From the NCBI RefSeq assembly GCF_900101015.1, contig NZ_FNFZ01000020.1:1-64000 (forward strand): DNA of 64,000 nt, read 5' to 3'. Below, in pieces: positions 4,795-37,399 of the stretch. Both the position numbers and the translations under genes were made by a program. The notes beneath the pieces were generated by a model. That model did not search any database, was not told the origin of the DNA, and was given only the letters and a program-made list of their open reading frames with translations. The stretch comes from Sarcina sp. DSM 11001 (GTDB lineage: Bacteria; Bacillota; Clostridia; Lachnospirales; Lachnospiraceae). Each line of letters opens with the position of its first letter. Position 1 is the stretch's first letter.

Positions 4795-7392
4795 ATGGAT
4801 GAAAAACTGAAACTTACCAGAAGAAAATTTCTCCAGGTTTCGGCAGCGGCCGGTGCCGTTGCCGCAGCTGGTGGAATAGAACTGGCGGCCCATGCCGCGC
4901 CGGATGAAGAGGCGAAAAAAGGTGAGCTGAAGTATGTACGAACCACGTGCGCGCCTAACTGCACCGGCGGCTGCGGCCAGCAGGCCTGTGTCTACAATGG
5001 TGAAATCAAGGATATTATTCAGGCGTCGGATTACGAAGATCCCGAGCACAATCCCAGAGGATGCCTCAAGGGCATCTCCTTCTCCAATCTGATCTACGGT
5101 CCCAACCGTATGCATGGACCACTCAAGCGAGTCGGAAAACCCGGTGAGGATGAGTTCGAGGAGCTGAGCTGGGAAGACGCTCTTGATCAGGCGGGAGCGG
5201 AGCTCCGCAGGATCAGCGACACATACGGGCCTGAATCGATCGCCTGTGTCGTCCAGGTTGCAGGTACCGGCCATGTCGCCAAGGGCGCGATCTCCAGGAT
5301 CGCGACTTTGAACGGCTGGGCTATGATGGGCGGCTATGAGATGAACGGCGACCTTCCCATGTCCGCTCCCATAACCTTCGGCGTGCAGTCCGAAGAACTG
5401 GAGACCTATTGCTGGCTGGACGCGAAATATATCATGTGCTTCGGCTCCAACCCCATGCAGACCCGTATCCCGGACGCGCATTTCCTTAATGAGGCGCGCG
5501 AGAACGGGGCAAAGCTGCTGGTCTTTGACCCCTGCTTCACAGCGACGGCGGCTAAGGCGGACGAGTGGTATTCCATAAAGCCTTCAAGCGACGCGGCGGT
5601 GGCTCTCGGCTTCGCCAAAGTCATCCTGGATGAGAAACTTTATGACGCGGACTTTATCCGCAAATTTACGGATATGCCGATCCTGATCAGAAGCGACAAT
5701 CAGAAAAAGCTGCTTGCGGCGGATGTCGAGGGGCTTGAGGTTCCCGCGGATATGCCTGAATACAGACAGGCCTTTGTCGCTTACAGCAAGGGAAAACCCG
5801 TCACTGTCAATCCCGAGAAGTTTGATCTGCCCATGGATACACTGCTTGAAGGGGAAGTGACGATCAGACTCAAGGATGGAAAGACCGTTAAGTGCCGCCC
5901 TGTCTTTGACCTGCTCAGCGAGATGGCTTCCCAGTGGACTCCCGAGGCGGTCGAGGCGGAGACCGACATGCCCGCTTCCGAGATCGCAAGGATCGCGCGG
6001 GAAATGGCGGCGACGAAGCCTGTTCATATCATGTACGGCGCTTCCAACTATCAGTGGTATCACGGAGACCTCAAAGGAAGAGCCCTGTCCCTGCTCGTCG
6101 CCCTGACAGGCAACATCGGACACCTTGGAGACGGTTTCTCCACCTATGCAGGCCAGTACAAGATGCGCTACAAAGGCGCCGCCTGGTGGAATGTACCCGA
6201 ACTTCCCGACCGGAAGCCCGCGGGAACATCCTTTGCCTACATGCTGGATTATACACTCAATGATTACGCGAAAAACGGGCCCCGTCCTACGATGACCTGC
6301 CCCTTCCCCAAGAGTGGTATCAAGGCCTGGATCCTGTACTGCTGCAATGCCTTTGACCAGCACAATATCGCCAATGTCCTGCGTGAGCAGGTCGAGAGCG
6401 GACAGCTCGAGTGCGTCATCACTCTGGACTTCCAGAAGACCACTACGAGCAAATACGCCCACTTCTGCCTGCCCGGTGTCAGCTGGTATGAGAAGACTGA
6501 ACTCGTTTCCACCCCGATCCATCCCTACGCCCAGCTCATGCAGCCGGCTATTGAGCCCCTGTACGACTGTAAGCCTGAGCTCTGGATCATGCGCGAGCTC
6601 GCAAAGCGTGTCAATCCGGGCGATGAGAAGTATTTCTATCCTGATCTGGATCCGGACAAGGCTGCGGAGGAAGTCATCAAACTCACCTGCGAGACCGGCG
6701 GCATCGAGATGGAAGGCGTCACCCTCGAGAAACTGAAAAAGGGACCTGTCAAACTCCACCACGAGAACCCCGGACGCAAGAGGATCCCTTTCTACGAGCA
6801 GATCCAGGGCGGGCAGCCTTTCCCTCCTGTCAGTTACCCGATGACGATCGACAAGACGGCTCAGTTCGTCAAGAGCGGCAGGATCGAATTTTACAAGGAC
6901 GAAGATACCTTTATCAAGGTCGGAGAGTGCCTGCCTGTCCACAAGCCCCCGTTCGAGGAGACGGAATATGTGCTTAATCCCGCGGCGAGGGATTTGTACA
7001 AATATACTTATATTACACGTAACAGTATTCACCGCGTACATTCCACCCATTCCAACAACCAGATGATGCGTGAACTTCAGGATGACAGCGCCAAGGTCTA
7101 TCTCAACCCCGATGACGCATCGGAAAAGGGCGTTAAGGCCGGCGACCTGGTCGAAGTCTTCAACGACAGAGGCAGACTCATTGCGGAAGCAGTCCTCGAT
7201 CCCGGTGTCCGCACTATGACTGTCATTTTTGAAGAGGGCTGGTGGAGCCGGTACACGCACGGAACATCCTACAATACGCTGCTTTACCCCTGGATCAACC
7301 CGGTTCACGAAGTATACTTTGTCTCACAGATGTGGGCACCCAACACATCGTGGAATGAATGCCTGGTGGACTTCAAAAAAGCGGAAATGTAA
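4795..7392 (+). CDS. Type II DMSO reductase-family molybdenum oxidoreductase, catalytic subunit
   Basis: The 865-residue protein starts with a twin-arginine signal (TRRKFLQVS, then an Ala-rich stretch to AAHA), so it should be folded with its cofactor and exported by Tat. The ATG at 4795 has aaggaagg 8 nt upstream and puts the signal at the N-terminus. A [4Fe-4S] site is formed by Cys52, Cys56, Cys60 and Cys90. The block GDLPMSAPITFG (Asp186), then GSNPMQTRIPDAHF and FIRKFTDMPILIRSD, matches the type II branch (NarG, DdhA, EbdA, PcrA), whose Mo ligand is Asp. In those enzymes the first cluster ligand is usually His, here Cys. The C-terminal molybdopterin dinucleotide-binding domain is present. 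Substrate is not predictable; terminal reductase is the likeliest role. Confidence 0.88.
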   Translation: MDEKLKLTRRKFLQVSAAAGAVAAAGGIELAAHAAPDEEAKKGELKYVRTTCAPNCTGGCGQQACVYNGEIKDIIQASDYEDPEHNPRGCLKGISFSNLIYGPNRMHGPLKRVGKPGEDEFEELSWEDALDQAGAELRRISDTYGPESIACVVQVAGTGHVAKGAISRIATLNGWAMMGGYEMNGDLPMSAPITFGVQSEELETYCWLDAKYIMCFGSNPMQTRIPDAHFLNEARENGAKLLVFDPCFTATAAKADEWYSIKPSSDAAVALGFAKVILDEKLYDADFIRKFTDMPILIRSDNQKKLLAADVEGLEVPADMPEYRQAFVAYSKGKPVTVNPEKFDLPMDTLLEGEVTIRLKDGKTVKCRPVFDLLSEMASQWTPEAVEAETDMPASEIARIAREMAATKPVHIMYGASNYQWYHGDLKGRALSLLVALTGNIGHLGDGFSTYAGQYKMRYKGAAWWNVPELPDRKPAGTSFAYMLDYTLNDYAKNGPRPTMTCPFPKSGIKAWILYCCNAFDQHNIANVLREQVESGQLECVITLDFQKTTTSKYAHFCLPGVSWYEKTELVSTPIHPYAQLMQPAIEPLYDCKPELWIMRELAKRVNPGDEKYFYPDLDPDKAAEEVIKLTCETGGIEMEGVTLEKLKKGPVKLHHENPGRKRIPFYEQIQGGQPFPPVSYPMTIDKTAQFVKSGRIEFYKDEDTFIKVGECLPVHKPPFEETEYVLNPAARDLYKYTYITRNSIHRVHSTHSNNQMMRELQDDSAKVYLNPDDASEKGVKAGDLVEVFNDRGRLIAEAVLDPGVRTMTVIFEEGWWSRYTHGTSYNTLLYPWINPVHEVYFVSQMWAPNTSWNECLVDFKKAEM

Positions 7393-7410
7393 GTGCTCTG
7401 TGTGTCGCGC

Positions 7411-7433
7411 CCGGTTTTCAGAGGCAAAACCGG
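7411..7433 (+). other. Hairpin between catalytic and ferredoxin subunit genes
   Basis: CCGGTTTT (7411-7418) pairs with AAAACCGG (7426-7433) across a 7-nt loop. There is no T-run, so it is more likely an mRNA processing or stability element than a terminator. It lies in the 97-nt gap between two genes that must be co-expressed. Confidence 0.45.
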
Positions 7434-7489
7434 CGTTGATCCACGAGGAACGAGAAATGGTCAATGTTCCGAAAGGAGAATGAATCCAA

Positions 7490-8236
7490 ATGCGTTATTG
7501 TATGGTGATAGATCTGGATAAATGCATCGGCTGCCAGACCTGCGCGGTTATCTGCAAGATGCATCACGCCCAGCCGCAGGGAACCTGGTGGAACAGGGTT
7601 TTCACGCAGGGCTCAGAGTACCATCAGTCGGCGGTGCGTACCGGAAACGGTTATAAAATTGAATATCTGCCTGTGTCGTGCCAGATGTGCGAAAATGCCC
7701 CTTGTGAGAGGGTCTGTCCCACCGGAGCGACCTACAAGAATGAACAGGGTATGATCCTGGTCGACTACAACCGCTGTATCGGCTGCCGTACCTGTATGGC
7801 AGCCTGCCCCTACGGCGTGCGCCAGTTCAACTGGAAGGACCCCAAAAAAGAGAAGGCGGAAGCCGGCTATGCGTACGGCTATCCCTTCGATGTCACAGAG
7901 AACGGAAAACGGCTGGTTTATACGCAGGACCGTCCCGCAGGTGTTGTGGAAAAATGTACATTCTGCGTCGAGTGCATGAATGCGGACGGTACCTACGACG
8001 CTCTTCCCGCCTGCGTCCGCGCCTGCCCCGGCAAGGCCCGTTACTTCGGTGACCTGGATGATCCGGATTCCGAGGTGAGCCGTCTTGTCGCAAGCAAACA
8101 GGTCTTCCGTCTCAAGGAAGAATACGGCACCGAGCCCAAGGTCTACTATATCTCCTCTACCAAGAGCAAAAATGTAGAAGGCCCCTGGGAGGAACAGTCC
8201 TGGGAAAACAAAACTGAGAATACAATGATACCGTAA
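7490..8236 (+). CDS. DmsB-type four-cluster ferredoxin subunit
   Basis: The 248-residue protein carries four cysteine groups in the DmsB/PhsB/NrfC pattern: CIGCQTCAVIC, CQMCENAPCERVC, CIGCRTCMAAC, and a split last group CTFC...CVRAC. Each should hold a [4Fe-4S] cluster passing electrons between the membrane anchor and the molybdenum subunit. It has no signal of its own, as expected for a subunit carried out with a Tat-tagged partner. The start ATG 7490 follows aaaggag. It lies between the catalytic subunit and the NrfD-like anchor, 12 nt before the latter. Confidence 0.9.
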   Translation: MRYCMVIDLDKCIGCQTCAVICKMHHAQPQGTWWNRVFTQGSEYHQSAVRTGNGYKIEYLPVSCQMCENAPCERVCPTGATYKNEQGMILVDYNRCIGCRTCMAACPYGVRQFNWKDPKKEKAEAGYAYGYPFDVTENGKRLVYTQDRPAGVVEKCTFCVECMNADGTYDALPACVRACPGKARYFGDLDDPDSEVSRLVASKQVFRLKEEYGTEPKVYYISSTKSKNVEGPWEEQSWENKTENTMIP

Positions 8237-26001: not shown

Positions 26002-27393
26002 ATGGATAAAAAACTTTATCCCCTGGACGTAGGTCAGATGCTGCAGTATCTGCCTATTCGGGAAACCGGCACCCAGCGCTGCTGCAACATCAGTATTTTT
26101 TCCGGTCTGCAGACAGAGATCGATTTTGATCTGCTCAAGAGATGCATACAGGACGAATTCAGACGTTACGAGTGCCTTCGTCTCCGGTTCACTGCCCCGG
26201 ATGAGAACGGTTTTGTACAGCAGTACATTGCGGAACGGGATGACCGGGACGTCCCCTTTATGGATCTCTCCAACCTCACCATGAAGGAAGCGGACGCCTT
26301 TTTACAGGAAAAGACGTATGAGGAGTTTAACGCGCCGGAGATCCCTATGGTGGAAATCACCATGGTCCGGATGCCGGAAGGCTACAACGGCATGTACATC
26401 CACATTGACCACCGCCTCGTAGATTCCTCCGGCCTCATCGTGATGGTCAATGACATTATGGAGCTCTACTGCCATTATCGCTTCGGCTCCGAGTATCCAA
26501 AGCCCCTTGCCTCCTTCGAAGAAGTTCTGATCAGTGACCTGAAAAAGGCGAAAAACGAAAAGCGCCGGGCCAAAGACGAGAAATTCTGGCATGATTACCT
26601 GACGGAGAACGGGGAACCTATCTATTCCGATATCAAGGGTTCCCGCATCCTGCAGGAGTCCCGGAAAAAGCACGGGAACAAATCCCTCCGCGCGGCGGAT
26701 GTGGAGACAGTGGACCGGTCTGTGGGTGTGGCGGACTTCCACCTGGAGCCCGAAGCCACTCAGAAACTGATGGACTTCTGCATGATGCACGGCGTGTCCA
26801 TGACCAACCTGATCCTCCTCACCATGAGGACCTACCTTTCCAAGGCAAACGGCGGCCAGGAGGACATCACCCTCCGGAATTTCGTCTCACGCCGCTCTAC
26901 ACAGGCGGAGTGGACCTGCGGCGGCAGCCGTGTGCTGTCCTTCCCGCTGCGCACCATCATCAGCCCGGATACGGAATTCCTGGATGCCCTGTATGAGATC
27001 CAGAACGTCCAGAATAAGATCTATCTCCACTGCAACTACGACCCGGTGGCGGTGGATAAGATGCTGAAGGAGCTCTATGGCGCGCCGGATAACACGGAGT
27101 ATATCTCCATGTCCCTGACCTATCAGCCCATGCCTGTCCGGATGCAGAATGAGCATCTGGCAGGGATCAATACGCGTTCCGTCTGGTATCCCAACGGCGC
27201 TGCCACGAAGAGGATCTACCTGACCGTCACCCACAGCTCGAATGACGGCGGTCTCATCTTTGATTATCATTATCAGAAAGCCGTTCTGTCCTATGATGAC
27301 ATTCAGAGGCTGTATTATTACATGATGAAGATGATGTTCCGCGGTGTGGATGAACCGGATGTCACGATCGGCGAACTGATCAGTACCGTGTAA
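26002..27393 (+). CDS. Free-standing condensation-domain-like acyltransferase (first)
   Basis: The 463-residue protein has the two-lobe plan of NRPS condensation domains and related acyltransferases. The active-site motif HHxxxDG appears as DHRLVDS, with His137 and Asp141. FSGLQTEIDFDLLKRCIQDEFRRYECLR-type sequence at the N-terminus (residues ~30-65) matches the strand-helix start of the fold. NRPS condensation domains join acyl or peptidyl groups carried on carrier proteins; here the enzyme stands alone with a small carrier protein 155 nt downstream. ATG 26002 has taggagg upstream. The Gly of the motif is changed to Ser, so activity should be tested rather than assumed. Confidence 0.78.
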   Translation: MDKKLYPLDVGQMLQYLPIRETGTQRCCNISIFSGLQTEIDFDLLKRCIQDEFRRYECLRLRFTAPDENGFVQQYIAERDDRDVPFMDLSNLTMKEADAFLQEKTYEEFNAPEIPMVEITMVRMPEGYNGMYIHIDHRLVDSSGLIVMVNDIMELYCHYRFGSEYPKPLASFEEVLISDLKKAKNEKRRAKDEKFWHDYLTENGEPIYSDIKGSRILQESRKKHGNKSLRAADVETVDRSVGVADFHLEPEATQKLMDFCMMHGVSMTNLILLTMRTYLSKANGGQEDITLRNFVSRRSTQAEWTCGGSRVLSFPLRTIISPDTEFLDALYEIQNVQNKIYLHCNYDPVAVDKMLKELYGAPDNTEYISMSLTYQPMPVRMQNEHLAGINTRSVWYPNGAATKRIYLTVTHSSNDGGLIFDYHYQKAVLSYDDIQRLYYYMMKMMFRGVDEPDVTIGELISTV

Positions 27394-35599: not shown

Positions 35600-35717
35600 T
35601 TGCCGAAAGGCAAAAGGCACGTACAGCAATGATTTTGCAAATACTCTCTCACAGTGTTTTGGAGCAGGTTCGACTCCTGCGTAAGCGAGGAATGCTTCCG
35701 GCAGAACAACGTGCCTT
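35600..35717 (+). ncRNA. tRNA-like, Y RNA-like non-coding RNA (candidate)
   Basis: A GAAA-capped hairpin (TTGCC/GGCAA, 35600-35613) is followed at once by AAGGCACGT (35614-35622). That pairs perfectly with ACGTGCCTT (35709-35717), closing the molecule. Enclosed are a short D-like arm (GCA/TGC, 35626-35638) and an anticodon-like arm (ATACT/AGTGT, 35641-35657) with 7-nt loop CTCTCAC, which has U33 and anticodon CUC. A perfect T arm follows (GCAGG-TTCGACT-CCTGC, 35664-35680), then a small AAGC/GCTT hairpin. There is no acceptor stem pairing and no G18-G19, so it is not a normal tRNA. A tRNA-like module on a closing stem beside a Ro60-like gene is the Y RNA (YrlA) pattern; ends are inferred. Confidence 0.65.
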
Positions 35718-35723
35718 GTCCAT

Positions 35724-35795
35724 GGCTCCTTGGTCTAATGGCAGTGACTTCAGGTTCTCAGCCTGAAAATGCGAGTTCGAATCTCGCAGGAGTCA
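35724..35795 (+). tRNA. tRNA-Glu (anticodon CUC)
   Basis: All tRNA parts are present. The acceptor stem is GGCTCCT/AGGAGTC with one G-T pair (35724-35730, 35788-35794). The D arm is GTC/GAC with loop TAATGGCAGT, containing A14 and G18-G19. The anticodon arm is TCAGG-TTCTCAG-CCTGA (35750-35766), anticodon CUC at 35757-35759. The T arm is GCGAG-TTCGAAT-CTCGC. The discriminator is A; CCA is not encoded. It starts six bases after the tRNA-like RNA and ends 55 bases before the DUF2828 start, with no T-run terminator between, so the three may be co-transcribed. The D stem has only three pairs and the variable loop is short, so reduced or special function is possible. Confidence 0.82.
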
Positions 35796-35850
35796 TTCGG
35801 GGGGTCAAGAGTGTACCCGGATAAATAAACGGAAAGGAGGAGAGAATATT

Positions 35851-37314
35851 ATGCTGAATTTTCTGAAGGCCATGAAAAAGACAGCAAATGTGACAGTAAC
35901 GGAGAATGGCGCAGTGACGCCCCGCAGCACCGGTTCTGACTGTCTGAATCTGTTCGCGACCATCGGTGCCCTGCGTACCCGCAGCAGTGCGGAGATCGAG
36001 AATCGTTTTCTGCGGGCCTTTGCCGAGGATCCGGATGTGGCTATGAAGATTCTCTTCTATGCCCGTGATATCCGGGGCGGCCTGGGTGAGCGTGCCGTGT
36101 TCCGTACGCTGATCCGCTGGCTGGCTGAGAACGAGATGCCGTCTCTGGTACGAAATCTGCCCTATATAGCGGAGTACGGCCGTTGGGATGACAACCTTGT
36201 CCTGCTGGACACTCCGGCCCGCAGTGCCGCAAAGGCTGTTCTTTATCGTCAGTTTCAGGCGGACATGCAGGCGTTGGAGAGCGGTAAGCAGGTTTCCCTG
36301 CTTGGCAAGTGGCTGCCGTCTGTGAACGCTTCCAATGCGGAGACAGTCCGCATGGCAAAGCAGCTTGCCCGCGCCTTCGGCATGAACGAGGCGCAGTACC
36401 GCAAGGCCTTGTCCGCGCTCCGGGCGCAGATCCTCATTATTGAGAACAACCTGCGCGAGCGTGATTACAGCTTTGACTATGCTAAGCAGCCGTCGAAGGC
36501 GATGTTCAAGTACCGCCGCGCCTTTATGCGCAACGACCAGGTACGTTACCAGGTGTTTATGACGCAGGTAAAGGACGGCAGTGCAGTGCTCCATACCGGC
36601 ACGCTGATGCCTTATGAGATCGTTGCTTCCGCCTATGATGCCGGCGAGAATGAGCGCGAGGCCCTGAATGTGACCTGGAACGCGCTGGAGGACTTTACAA
36701 ACAACGAGAACGCGCTTGTCGTGGCGGACGGCTCCGGTTCCATGTATTGGTGTGGCAGCCCGAAGCCGGCGGCAGTGGCCCAGTCTCTCGCGATTTATTT
36801 CGCGGAGCGGAACCAGGGCGCCTTCCGCAACCACTTTATTACTTTTTCCATGACCCCGCAGCTTGTGGAGATCAGGGGCCGGGATATCGTGGAGAAGGTT
36901 CGTTACTGCCGTTCCTTCAATGAGTGCGCCAACACTAACCTGCAGTCGGTGTTCGAGCTGATCCTGCACACTGCGGTGGAGAACCGCGTGCCGCAAAAGC
37001 AGCTTCCCTCCACACTGTACATTGTATCTGACATGGAGTTTGACTCATGTGCTCACGGTGCGTCCGTCAGCAACTTTGAGTACGCAAAGAACCTGTACAG
37101 AAAGTTTGGCTACAAGCTGCCGAGGGTCGTGTTCTGGAATGTCCAGTCCCGCAGCCAGCAGCAGCCCGTGAAGATGAACGAGCAGGGCGTGGCGCTGGTC
37201 TCCGGCTGTACGGCAAGGATCTTCTCCCAGGTTATGAGCGGCGAGATGGATCCGTATGCCAACATGATGAATGTTATCGGCAGTGACCGGTATGAGGTGA
37301 TCAAGGCCGGCTGA
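35851..37314 (+). CDS. DUF2828-type Ro60/TROVE-like RNA-binding protein with vWA domain
   Basis: The 487-residue protein has an alpha-helical repeat N-terminal half with ARDIRGGLGER at 71-81, a motif shared in form with TROVE/Ro60 proteins (DxRGGxGxR). It continues with NLPYIAEYGRWDDNLVLL, KQPSKAMFKYRRAF and, from ~285, a von Willebrand A domain with MIDAS site D293-G-S-G-S-M298 and a later SDMEFD. In Ro60 the helical ring binds misfolded RNAs and Y RNA, and the vWA domain closes the ring. DUF2828 is a related but separate family. The gene is preceded by a tRNA-like RNA and a tRNA; ATG 35851 has aaaggagg. RNA quality control is my inference; no RtcB or nuclease partner is adjacent. Confidence 0.8.
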   Translation: MLNFLKAMKKTANVTVTENGAVTPRSTGSDCLNLFATIGALRTRSSAEIENRFLRAFAEDPDVAMKILFYARDIRGGLGERAVFRTLIRWLAENEMPSLVRNLPYIAEYGRWDDNLVLLDTPARSAAKAVLYRQFQADMQALESGKQVSLLGKWLPSVNASNAETVRMAKQLARAFGMNEAQYRKALSALRAQILIIENNLRERDYSFDYAKQPSKAMFKYRRAFMRNDQVRYQVFMTQVKDGSAVLHTGTLMPYEIVASAYDAGENEREALNVTWNALEDFTNNENALVVADGSGSMYWCGSPKPAAVAQSLAIYFAERNQGAFRNHFITFSMTPQLVEIRGRDIVEKVRYCRSFNECANTNLQSVFELILHTAVENRVPQKQLPSTLYIVSDMEFDSCAHGASVSNFEYAKNLYRKFGYKLPRVVFWNVQSRSQQQPVKMNEQGVALVSGCTARIFSQVMSGEMDPYANMMNVIGSDRYEVIKAG

Positions 37315-37362: not shown

Positions 37363-37399
37363 GCCCCCGCAGTTCCGAAAATGGAGCCGCGGGGGCTTT
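37363..37399. terminator. Hairpin between DUF2828 and DNA polymerase genes
   Basis: GCCCCCGC (37363-37370) pairs with GCGGGGGC (37389-37396), then ttt. It lies between convergent genes and may end both transcripts, although the T-tract is short. Confidence 0.6.

Follow-up and report, generated by a model that had tools for sequence, protein, structure and literature searches.

Ro60 and Y RNAs have been studied as autoantigens and as RNA-surveillance factors. Chen et al. 2014 reportedly found Y RNAs in the vicinity of Ro60 in over 250 bacteria and phages, and some of the YrlA-type phage units described below may therefore already be listed there. In Deinococcus, according to the sections of PMC7790460 and PMC8394870 available to us, Rsr and a Y RNA tether PNPase for the decay of structured RNAs. 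For phages, the accessible parts of three further papers state that YrlA is present in several of them (PMC7765460), that overexpression of LeBron gp53 is toxic (PMC13148394) and that CKA15_055 was guessed to be an Rsr and the hot non-coding RNAs upstream to be Y RNAs (PMC12282133). Phage Ro-like proteins and phage YrlA are already in print, and the RNA family as such is seemingly new. A literature search on DUF2828 returned nothing on a Ro60-like RNP with this RNA, and the RCAGCAA base, the anticodon-loop mimics and the inverse permutation presented here are undescribed in those parts of the literature that the search covered, Chen et al. 2014 lying outside them.

The preliminary description of the locus studied here had proposed that DUF2828 proteins are a second Ro60-like family with a tRNA-like RNA partner of their own. 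This proposal is now supported by a covarying RNA, by the linkage of that RNA to the gene and by the predicted fold of the protein.

The locus and its DUF2828 protein

The window, i.e. the whole stretch of 64,000 nucleotides of Sarcina sp. DSM 11001 that was analysed, contains the following features around the gene:

35613..35718, + strand: Y-RNA-like unit (stem, 2 nt, ACAGCAA, tRNA-like body, stem, G), from pairing, fold and six aligned relatives
35614..35622, + strand: 5' strand of the closing stem (7-bp core AAGGCAC, then GT)
35623..35629, + strand: ACAGCAA motif, conserved, 2 nt past the 7-bp core; putative protein-recognition element
35626..35638, + strand: D-like hairpin GCAA-UGAUU-UUGC, from the fold
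35639..35659, + strand: anticodon-stem-loop-like hairpin, loop CUCUCAC (CUC at positions 34-36)
35664..35680, + strand: perfect T arm GCAGG-UUCGACU-CCUGC, from pairing and fold
35709..35717, + strand: 3' strand of the closing stem; the next base, G at 35718, is conserved
35723..35796, + strand: tRNA-Glu(CUC), an ordinary gene
35851..37314, + strand: gene of the Ro60-like protein, DUF2828 helical repeats plus vWA (DUF7788) with DxSxS
37363..37399, + strand: possible terminator 3' of the gene, a GC-rich inverted repeat followed by TTT only, recognised by eye

The perfect 9-bp closing stem reported earlier was recovered, AAGGCACGT at 35614-35622 being complementary to ACGTGCCTT at 35709-35717, and the fold likewise gives the D-like hairpin, a hairpin of 7 bp with a 7-nt loop for the anticodon-like arm and the perfect T arm. 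The whole unit of 106 nt folds with -33.4 kcal/mol (z -2.53), 3 of 200 shuffles being equally good. The tRNA-Glu(CTC) gene lies beside the RNA at 35723-35796 as described, and the 487-aa ORF at 35851-37314 contains the ARDIRGGLGER sequence that had been named for the helical-repeat plus vWA gene. Two further points held in part. A GAAA hairpin is present at 35600-35613, but it lies outside the closing stem and was not seen among the relatives' upstream stretches listed. The absence of an acceptor stem applies to the window unit and its six aligned relatives, which keep a short remnant only, but not to YrlA-type relatives, in which the acceptor is closed into a hairpin.

Five of the six aligned relatives carry the loop CUUUUAA (Lys UUU), compared with CUCUCAC in the window. 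Judged from its sequence, the window unit is a worn relative of the family that retains a T arm, a D-like hairpin and an anticodon-like hairpin. Within its own alignment group compensatory changes occur in 0 of 25 pairs, and the support from covariation therefore comes from the wider family. The unit has no match to the YrlA model of Rfam, outside whose coverage the family falls.

In Pfam the window protein matches DUF2828 (PF11443, 121.6 bits) and, in the vWA region, DUF7788 (PF25043, 138.8 bits); it also matches phrog_850, annotated as 'RNA-binding protein' (E 2.4e-130). The TROVE family (PF05731) gave no match at E≤1 for this protein and none in the window genome, and PADLOC and NCBIfam have no match for the protein. 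The AlphaFold model, built with 39 aligned proteins, reached a pLDDT of 85.2 and a pTM of 0.71. When it was compared with the PDB by Foldseek, all 12 matches at E≤0.001 were Ro60/Rsr/TROVE structures, the best being Ro60 of Thermus phage phiLo (3.2e-7), with Deinococcus Rsr at 9.9e-7; the next group, from E 0.03, consists of chains with vWA-type domains. The model superimposes only loosely on Ro60, with TM values of 0.38-0.54 when normalised by query length and an rmsd of 8.5-12.3. A profile-profile comparison with seven TROVE proteins gave a probability of 83% (E 8.8e-6) over 316 columns, and a profile search of the PDB found no chain for the family of the window protein. D293, S295, S297, T362 and D394, which we take to be the vWA metal-site residues, are invariant in the 39 sequences of the family. 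By both the structural matches and the profile comparison the predicted fold is of the Ro60 type, as had been supposed. On the strength of this model the DUF2828+vWA protein is distantly homologous to Ro60/Rsr, and it may be ring-shaped. The sources of its closest named relatives, metagenome bins for the most part, are Lachnospiraceae of the rumen and gut, Blautia and others; DUF2828 proteins were also found by tblastn in 673 phage records and are encoded in many gut bacteria.

An RNA unit linked to DUF2828 genes

We surveyed the stretches upstream of 50 loci from named genomes and of 31 loci from the window genome and its relatives. The unit that recurs among those listed has the form A-[7-nt stem strand]-NN-RCAGCAA-body-[complement]-G. 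When the stem was made a requirement, 92 matches were obtained in 54 of 76 upstream stretches (at most 500 nt), compared with 0 in 76 reverse complements, 3 in 104 pieces taken from other parts of the same loci and 2 in 380 shuffles. The 92 matches include A/T runs at L019 and L021, and some loci represent one genome twice (e.g. L003/L034). By the criterion of the scan 22 of the 76 bacterial stretches and 13 of 80 viral loci contain no unit.

Since this first scan selects for pairing, a test without the stem filter was carried out on all distinct RCAGCAA sites located 40 to 1200 nt upstream of DUF2828 genes. For 69 of 93 sites in bacteria and 77 of 215 in viruses, the exact complement of the 7-mer whose end is 2 nt ahead of the motif, followed by G, was present downstream. 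When the 7-mers were swapped among sites these fractions fell to 4.6% and 0.9%, reversed 7-mers gave 1/93 and 2/215, and the opposite strand 0/7 and 0/4. The spacer between stem and RCAGCAA is exactly 2 nt, spacers of 0, 1, 3, 4 or 5 nt giving 0 to 2 sites, and the positive sites comprise 14 distinct stems in bacteria and 39 in viruses.

The motif had been defined on bacterial loci; viral loci, fetched later, served as a held-out set, of which the best 80 of 205 were used. Within 1200 nt of the gene these best 80 of 205 carry 147 units on the gene strand and 2 on the opposite strand, beyond that distance 51 and 7, and at least one near unit is found in 67 of the 80, duplicate contigs being kept. 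Of 16 loci from named phages or plasmids, the units are clear in 11 (LeBron, A511, cka15, a Bacillus plasmid record, Felix-like REP7, a gut phage, TJE1, S-CoN_Ph9, Aeromonas 4_4572, Campylobacter F360 and Vibrio MS02), doubtful in three (nt-1, B23, FNU3) and absent from two (PHA46, PG-2021_43). The LeBron units appear only under a looser stem criterion, the stricter scan having found none. The idea that the most transcribed non-coding region of Listeria phage CKA15 is such a unit was rejected: of three such regions, the one given with coordinates in the accessible part of PMC12282133 is elsewhere. Most of the other DUF2828 genes examined thus have a conserved, covarying RNA beside them, as the preliminary description implied (54/76 bacterial stretches; 67/80 among the best 80 of 205 viral loci). 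The RNA family is real, large and tied to the Ro60-like protein family.

At the level of whole genomes, AARRRYRCNNRCAGCAA was tried as a marker and rejected as unspecific (69 of 99 genomes), and the co-occurrence test therefore uses only the subtype pattern TGTGACCC. A search of 99 related genomes for TGTGACCCNNRCAGCAA, the form that accompanies second-type genes, was positive in 18, each of which has a DUF2828 match. Altogether 31 of the 99 have such a match, and the subtype motif is present in none of the 68 others (Fisher P 8e-12; 1e-8 within the genus). Read backwards as a control, the pattern was found in one genome. Two of the 18, both incomplete assemblies, have no full second-type gene: G007 contains it only as a 174-base piece at a contig end, and G055 has the window-type gene only. 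The window genome itself has a second DUF2828 gene, 41% identical to the one in the window and with no RNA unit upstream; its TGTGACCCNNRCAGCAA-type units are clustered on contig C21, with one on C69, away from both DUF2828 genes.

Of all 23 subtype sites, 11 have a DUF2828 gene downstream at a distance of up to about 600 nt; the other 12 are elsewhere, nearly all of them on other contigs. This distribution bears on the reading of the tandem structures as a cis-acting leader that autoregulates the DUF2828 gene, with no separate RNP. Most units do lie upstream in the same orientation, 89 of them within 1500 nt, but others are situated downstream of the gene (in LeBron, the Felix-like phage L090 and L073) or, like the 12 subtype sites, elsewhere in the genome, and we regard a leader as improbable. 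That the units are degenerate tRNA debris or the ends of mobile elements near tRNA clusters, and not RNA partners of the protein, we disfavour as hardly credible. Many loci are indeed rich in tRNA genes, and a tRNA, whole or broken, is part of some units; yet the closing stem and the 2-nt spacing to RCAGCAA are kept and compensated while the body varies, the strand bias is strong, and the units co-occur with the gene even across contigs.

Exchangeable tRNA-like bodies

The body enclosed by the closing stem belongs to one of several classes. In the first it is a permuted tRNA, consisting of a T arm, an acceptor stem closed by a short loop and a D arm. For 13 such units, chosen by eye and length, RNAalifold gave a consensus in YrlA order, in which the closing stem is followed by the T arm, the acceptor hairpin and the D arm, with 24 pairs, 19 of them changed on both sides. 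When seven sources of this class were compared with the Rfam model of YrlA (RF02553), six matched at E≤1 and three at E≤0.01. The best DUF2828-linked match covers the whole model with 47.7 bits (E 1.3e-7), all matches being under the gathering score of 69 bits. The model is matched end to end at L039 (1.3e-7) and L029 (5.4e-7); L075 and L007 match weakly (0.033 and 0.11).

In the second class the body is a whole tRNA. ARAGORN detected one inside 4 of 105 distinct units (L043, L047, L050, L070), and the tRNA model, searched against seven loci, inside units of L043, L049 and L065. ARAGORN on circularised inserts matched 5 of 105, four of them the whole tRNAs already known, and 0 of 1050 shuffles; as a test for permutation it was rejected, adding only one case (L029).

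The third class contains a lone anticodon stem-loop, for which we required 5 or more bp in the stem and the 7-nt loop YUNNNRA, T loops being excluded. It is found in 25 of 103 units from bacteria, where shuffles gave 0.33 on average and at most 3 and the mirror loop 1, and in 40 of 165 from viruses, where the corresponding values are 1.13, 5 and 0. The bacterial set represents 103 of the 105 distinct units, two having been dropped by their first letters, and the viral set is what remained of 198 + strand matches once repeats, long ones and those without RCAGCA had been dropped. An earlier count of anticodon-like loops (50/103) had included T loops and was replaced. The T-arm motif is present in 31/103 bacterial and 29/165 viral units. 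The anticodons of the 65 loops include Lys UUU (21), Asn GUU (9), Ser GCU (5) and Ser UGA (4), and 56 loop-plus-stem sequences are distinct. At position 36, 58 of the 65 have U or A, for which a simple binomial that ignores base composition and relatedness gives 2e-11.

A fourth class, first seen in L068, L069, L074 and L078, shows the inverse permutation: the tRNA ends are outside and the RCAGCAA hairpin, the putative binding element, replaces the anticodon loop. Among the best 80 of 205 viral loci it gave 29 matches in 25 loci and 0 on the opposite strand. Of the 23 distinct viral matches, 20 are followed by a T arm no more than 110 nt away, and 18 are in addition flanked by a 7-bp acceptor pair; of 4000 random positions in the same loci, 232 and 52 are. 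Three of seven bacterial 'permuted' matches (L043, L048, L053) were set aside as joints between two tandem units. The tRNA-outside units of L069, L074 and L078 are missed by ARAGORN; the tRNA model finds two in L069. The minimum free energy fold of the L069 unit differs from the drawn shape (z -1.85), and the short unit of L057 folds little better than shuffles (z -0.97). The breadth of the protein in phages, the anticodon-loop mimics and the permutations go beyond what the preliminary description had claimed.

tRNA-Lys(UUU) is a classic target of anticodon nucleases. The units may accordingly be looked at as decoys or sensors, whose exposed anticodon stem-loops titrate or report tRNA cutters (Lys-UUU, Asn-GUU) while the protein holds or protects them and RtcB or phage ligases reseal. 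Nearly all loops read C-U-NNN-A-A with real anticodons, the bias at position 36 is that of A37 tRNAs, and several units occur in tandem; they are widespread in phages, with ligase genes near some. However, YrlA-type and inverse-permuted units cannot be anticodon baits as they have no anticodon loop, no nuclease or effector family recurs in at least 4 of 50 neighbourhoods, and the lack of a PADLOC match for the protein also speaks against this reading, which we consider possible but doubtful.

Gene neighbourhood, proposed mechanism and known systems

For the neighbourhood analysis the ORFs within 5 kb of 50 bacterial loci were grouped into similarity clusters; in 42 of the loci the downstream sequence is longer than 1200 nt. 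RtcB is encoded within 5 kb in 12 of the 50 loci and directly downstream in 10 (L046, L050, L052, L054, L055, L062, L064, L065, L070, L080). WYL-type regulators are found within 5 kb in 25 loci, as a gene pair in 14 (13 upstream, L044 downstream) and as a single divergent gene in 11 others. A Pfam search of nine neighbour examples returned RtcB for 3/3 and WYL or WCX for 5/6. The window gene had been described as standing without RtcB, which is correct: the one RtcB match of the genome is on another contig. Among the ORFs of the window no WYL gene lies beside it either. In phage cka15 a 'tRNA splicing ligase' is encoded a few genes away, and PHA46 has an RNA ligase nearby. The neighbourhood of the relatives fits RNA repair.

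The RNA could also be an exonuclease tether that links the ring to PNPase, the tRNA-like part being a handle or stabiliser only. Rsr and Y RNA act in this way in Deinococcus (accessible sections of PMC7790460 and PMC8394870), and the fold and the YrlA topology are common to both systems, but no PNPase-type family is recurrent in the 50 neighbourhoods and a tether would not need the diversity of anticodon mimics. We consider it unlikely.

Our preferred reading, which we hold to be probable, is a Ro60-type RNP with tRNA mimics that recruit enzymes acting on tRNA, or decoy them, in the course of tRNA repair or quality control. Conservation and co-occurrence suggest that the DUF2828+vWA protein binds a dedicated small RNA. 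Contact would be made at the base of the RNA, which consists of the closing stem with its covariation, the spacer of 2 nt and the RCAGCAA strand. The rest of the RNA, which would project from this base, is a tRNA mimic that can be exchanged, either a YrlA-like permuted tRNA body, a whole tRNA or a lone anticodon stem-loop, and may serve as a handle or decoy for tRNA-acting enzymes. Such a particle would function in tRNA repair or quality control, together with RtcB where this is encoded next door, and the phage versions might protect or recycle tRNAs during infection.

A tentative and rather unlikely extension would make the system a modular library of baits. Ro60-like rings would display tandem RNAs with a fixed base and swapped tRNA parts, above all the anticodon loops that anticodon nucleases attack, and thereby absorb or sense tRNA-cutting enzymes in bacteria and many phages. 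One RNA occurring in two circular permutations, with either the binding hairpin or the tRNA ends outside, would then mean that shape and not strand order is selected. Under the preferred reading of a Ro60-type RNP, the anticodon loops copied by the DUF2828 RNAs hint at their own targets, and with defined RNA motifs in phages and strains the question of what Ro-Y RNPs act on becomes directly testable.

TROVE genes are present in 9 of 398 Bacillota genomes. YrlA matches were obtained in 7 of these 9 loci, all under the gathering score (best 39.9). Eight stretches from TROVE loci carry TACTTC (7 TACTTCG, 1 TACTTCA) in place of RCAGCAA, and matches to the unit criterion at TROVE loci are few and inside coding sequence. 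One TROVE locus (L093, 368 to about 532, minus strand) contains a near-unit with stem, 2-nt spacer and ACAGCAA and with no final G, so that the stem-RCAGCAA base may not be wholly exclusive to DUF2828. An Asn-type anticodon loop occurs in 3 of the 8 TROVE-locus stretches, two of them nearly identical; anticodon mimicry may therefore not be confined to the DUF2828 branch.

Among known systems, tmRNA resembles the units in that the RNA imitates a tRNA in part, and of three weak matches to its model two are confined to positions 347-363; all three are far under the gathering score. The Salmonella rsr-yrlBA-rtcBA operon combines a Ro-type protein, a tRNA-like RNA and RtcB, as do 10 of 50 relatives here; its regulator is RtcR according to the accessible part of PMC7790460, whereas the relatives have WYL-type regulators. 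The phage 'Ro-like RNA-binding protein' (PHROG 850; LeBron gp53, CKA15_055) belongs to the same protein family, with RNA units at both loci, but the RNA partner in CKA15 had previously been guessed, and the text accessible to us leaves motif and unit undefined. Closest are Ro60/Rsr and YrlA, with which the DUF2828 system shares the predicted helical-repeat plus vWA fold, a gene adjoining a closing-stem RNA, the permuted tRNA body in one class and RtcB beside some relatives. It differs from them in that the protein is without a TROVE match in Pfam, that of the elements of YrlA (RF02553) no more than the T arm and remnants survive in the window unit, that the RNA base is stem-NN-RCAGCAA and not TACTTC, and that the RNA body is exchangeable between anticodon stem-loops, whole tRNAs and inverse permutations.

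Surroundings of the unit in the window

The anticodon-like loop of the window's Y-RNA-like unit (35639-35659) reads CUC, matching the adjoining tRNA-Glu(CUC) gene at 35723-35796. A tRNA-Glu(CUC) is also found nearby at two other bacterial DUF2828 loci, L003 and L004, where the units carry a Lys-type loop. The match between the window unit and its neighbouring tRNA is possibly due to chance. Directly 5' of the unit and external to its closing stem lies a GAAA hairpin (35600-35613); no similar hairpin was found among the upstream reads listed for relatives. At a further bacterial locus, L065, a single DUF2828 gene is located between two RtcB-like ORFs, one upstream (-2802) and one downstream (+1598).

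Further units in the same genome

Additional units, of the GGGACAC type and the TGTGACCC type, occur among three sites on contigs C21, C69 and C58 of the genome:
C21 near 8335 (locus L182)
C69 (locus L199)
C58:23044

Both DUF2828 genes of this genome are distant from these units, which probably represent RNAs serving the second DUF2828 gene in trans. Odd tRNA genes occur among the three sites, and C21 also harbors tRNA-outside permuted units.

Phage and TROVE loci

In the Felix-like phage REP7 (L090) the annotation of a 131-nt 'tRNA-Thr' (7321-7451) seems to be mistaken; this stretch overlaps two RNA units, one at 7286-7355 and one at 7375-7500. In Listeria phage CKA15, the non-coding region with the highest transcription (26,236-26,727; L209 989-1480) contains no RCAGCAA unit; this RNA of about 490 nt is a different one. 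Beside a TROVE gene (L093) we noted a near-unit:
368 to about 532, minus strand, 7-bp stem, 2-nt spacer and ACAGCAA, lacking the final G

At three other TROVE loci (L094, L096, L099) a CUGUUAA (Asn-type) anticodon loop on a 4-bp stem is located inside canonical YrlA-type RNAs.
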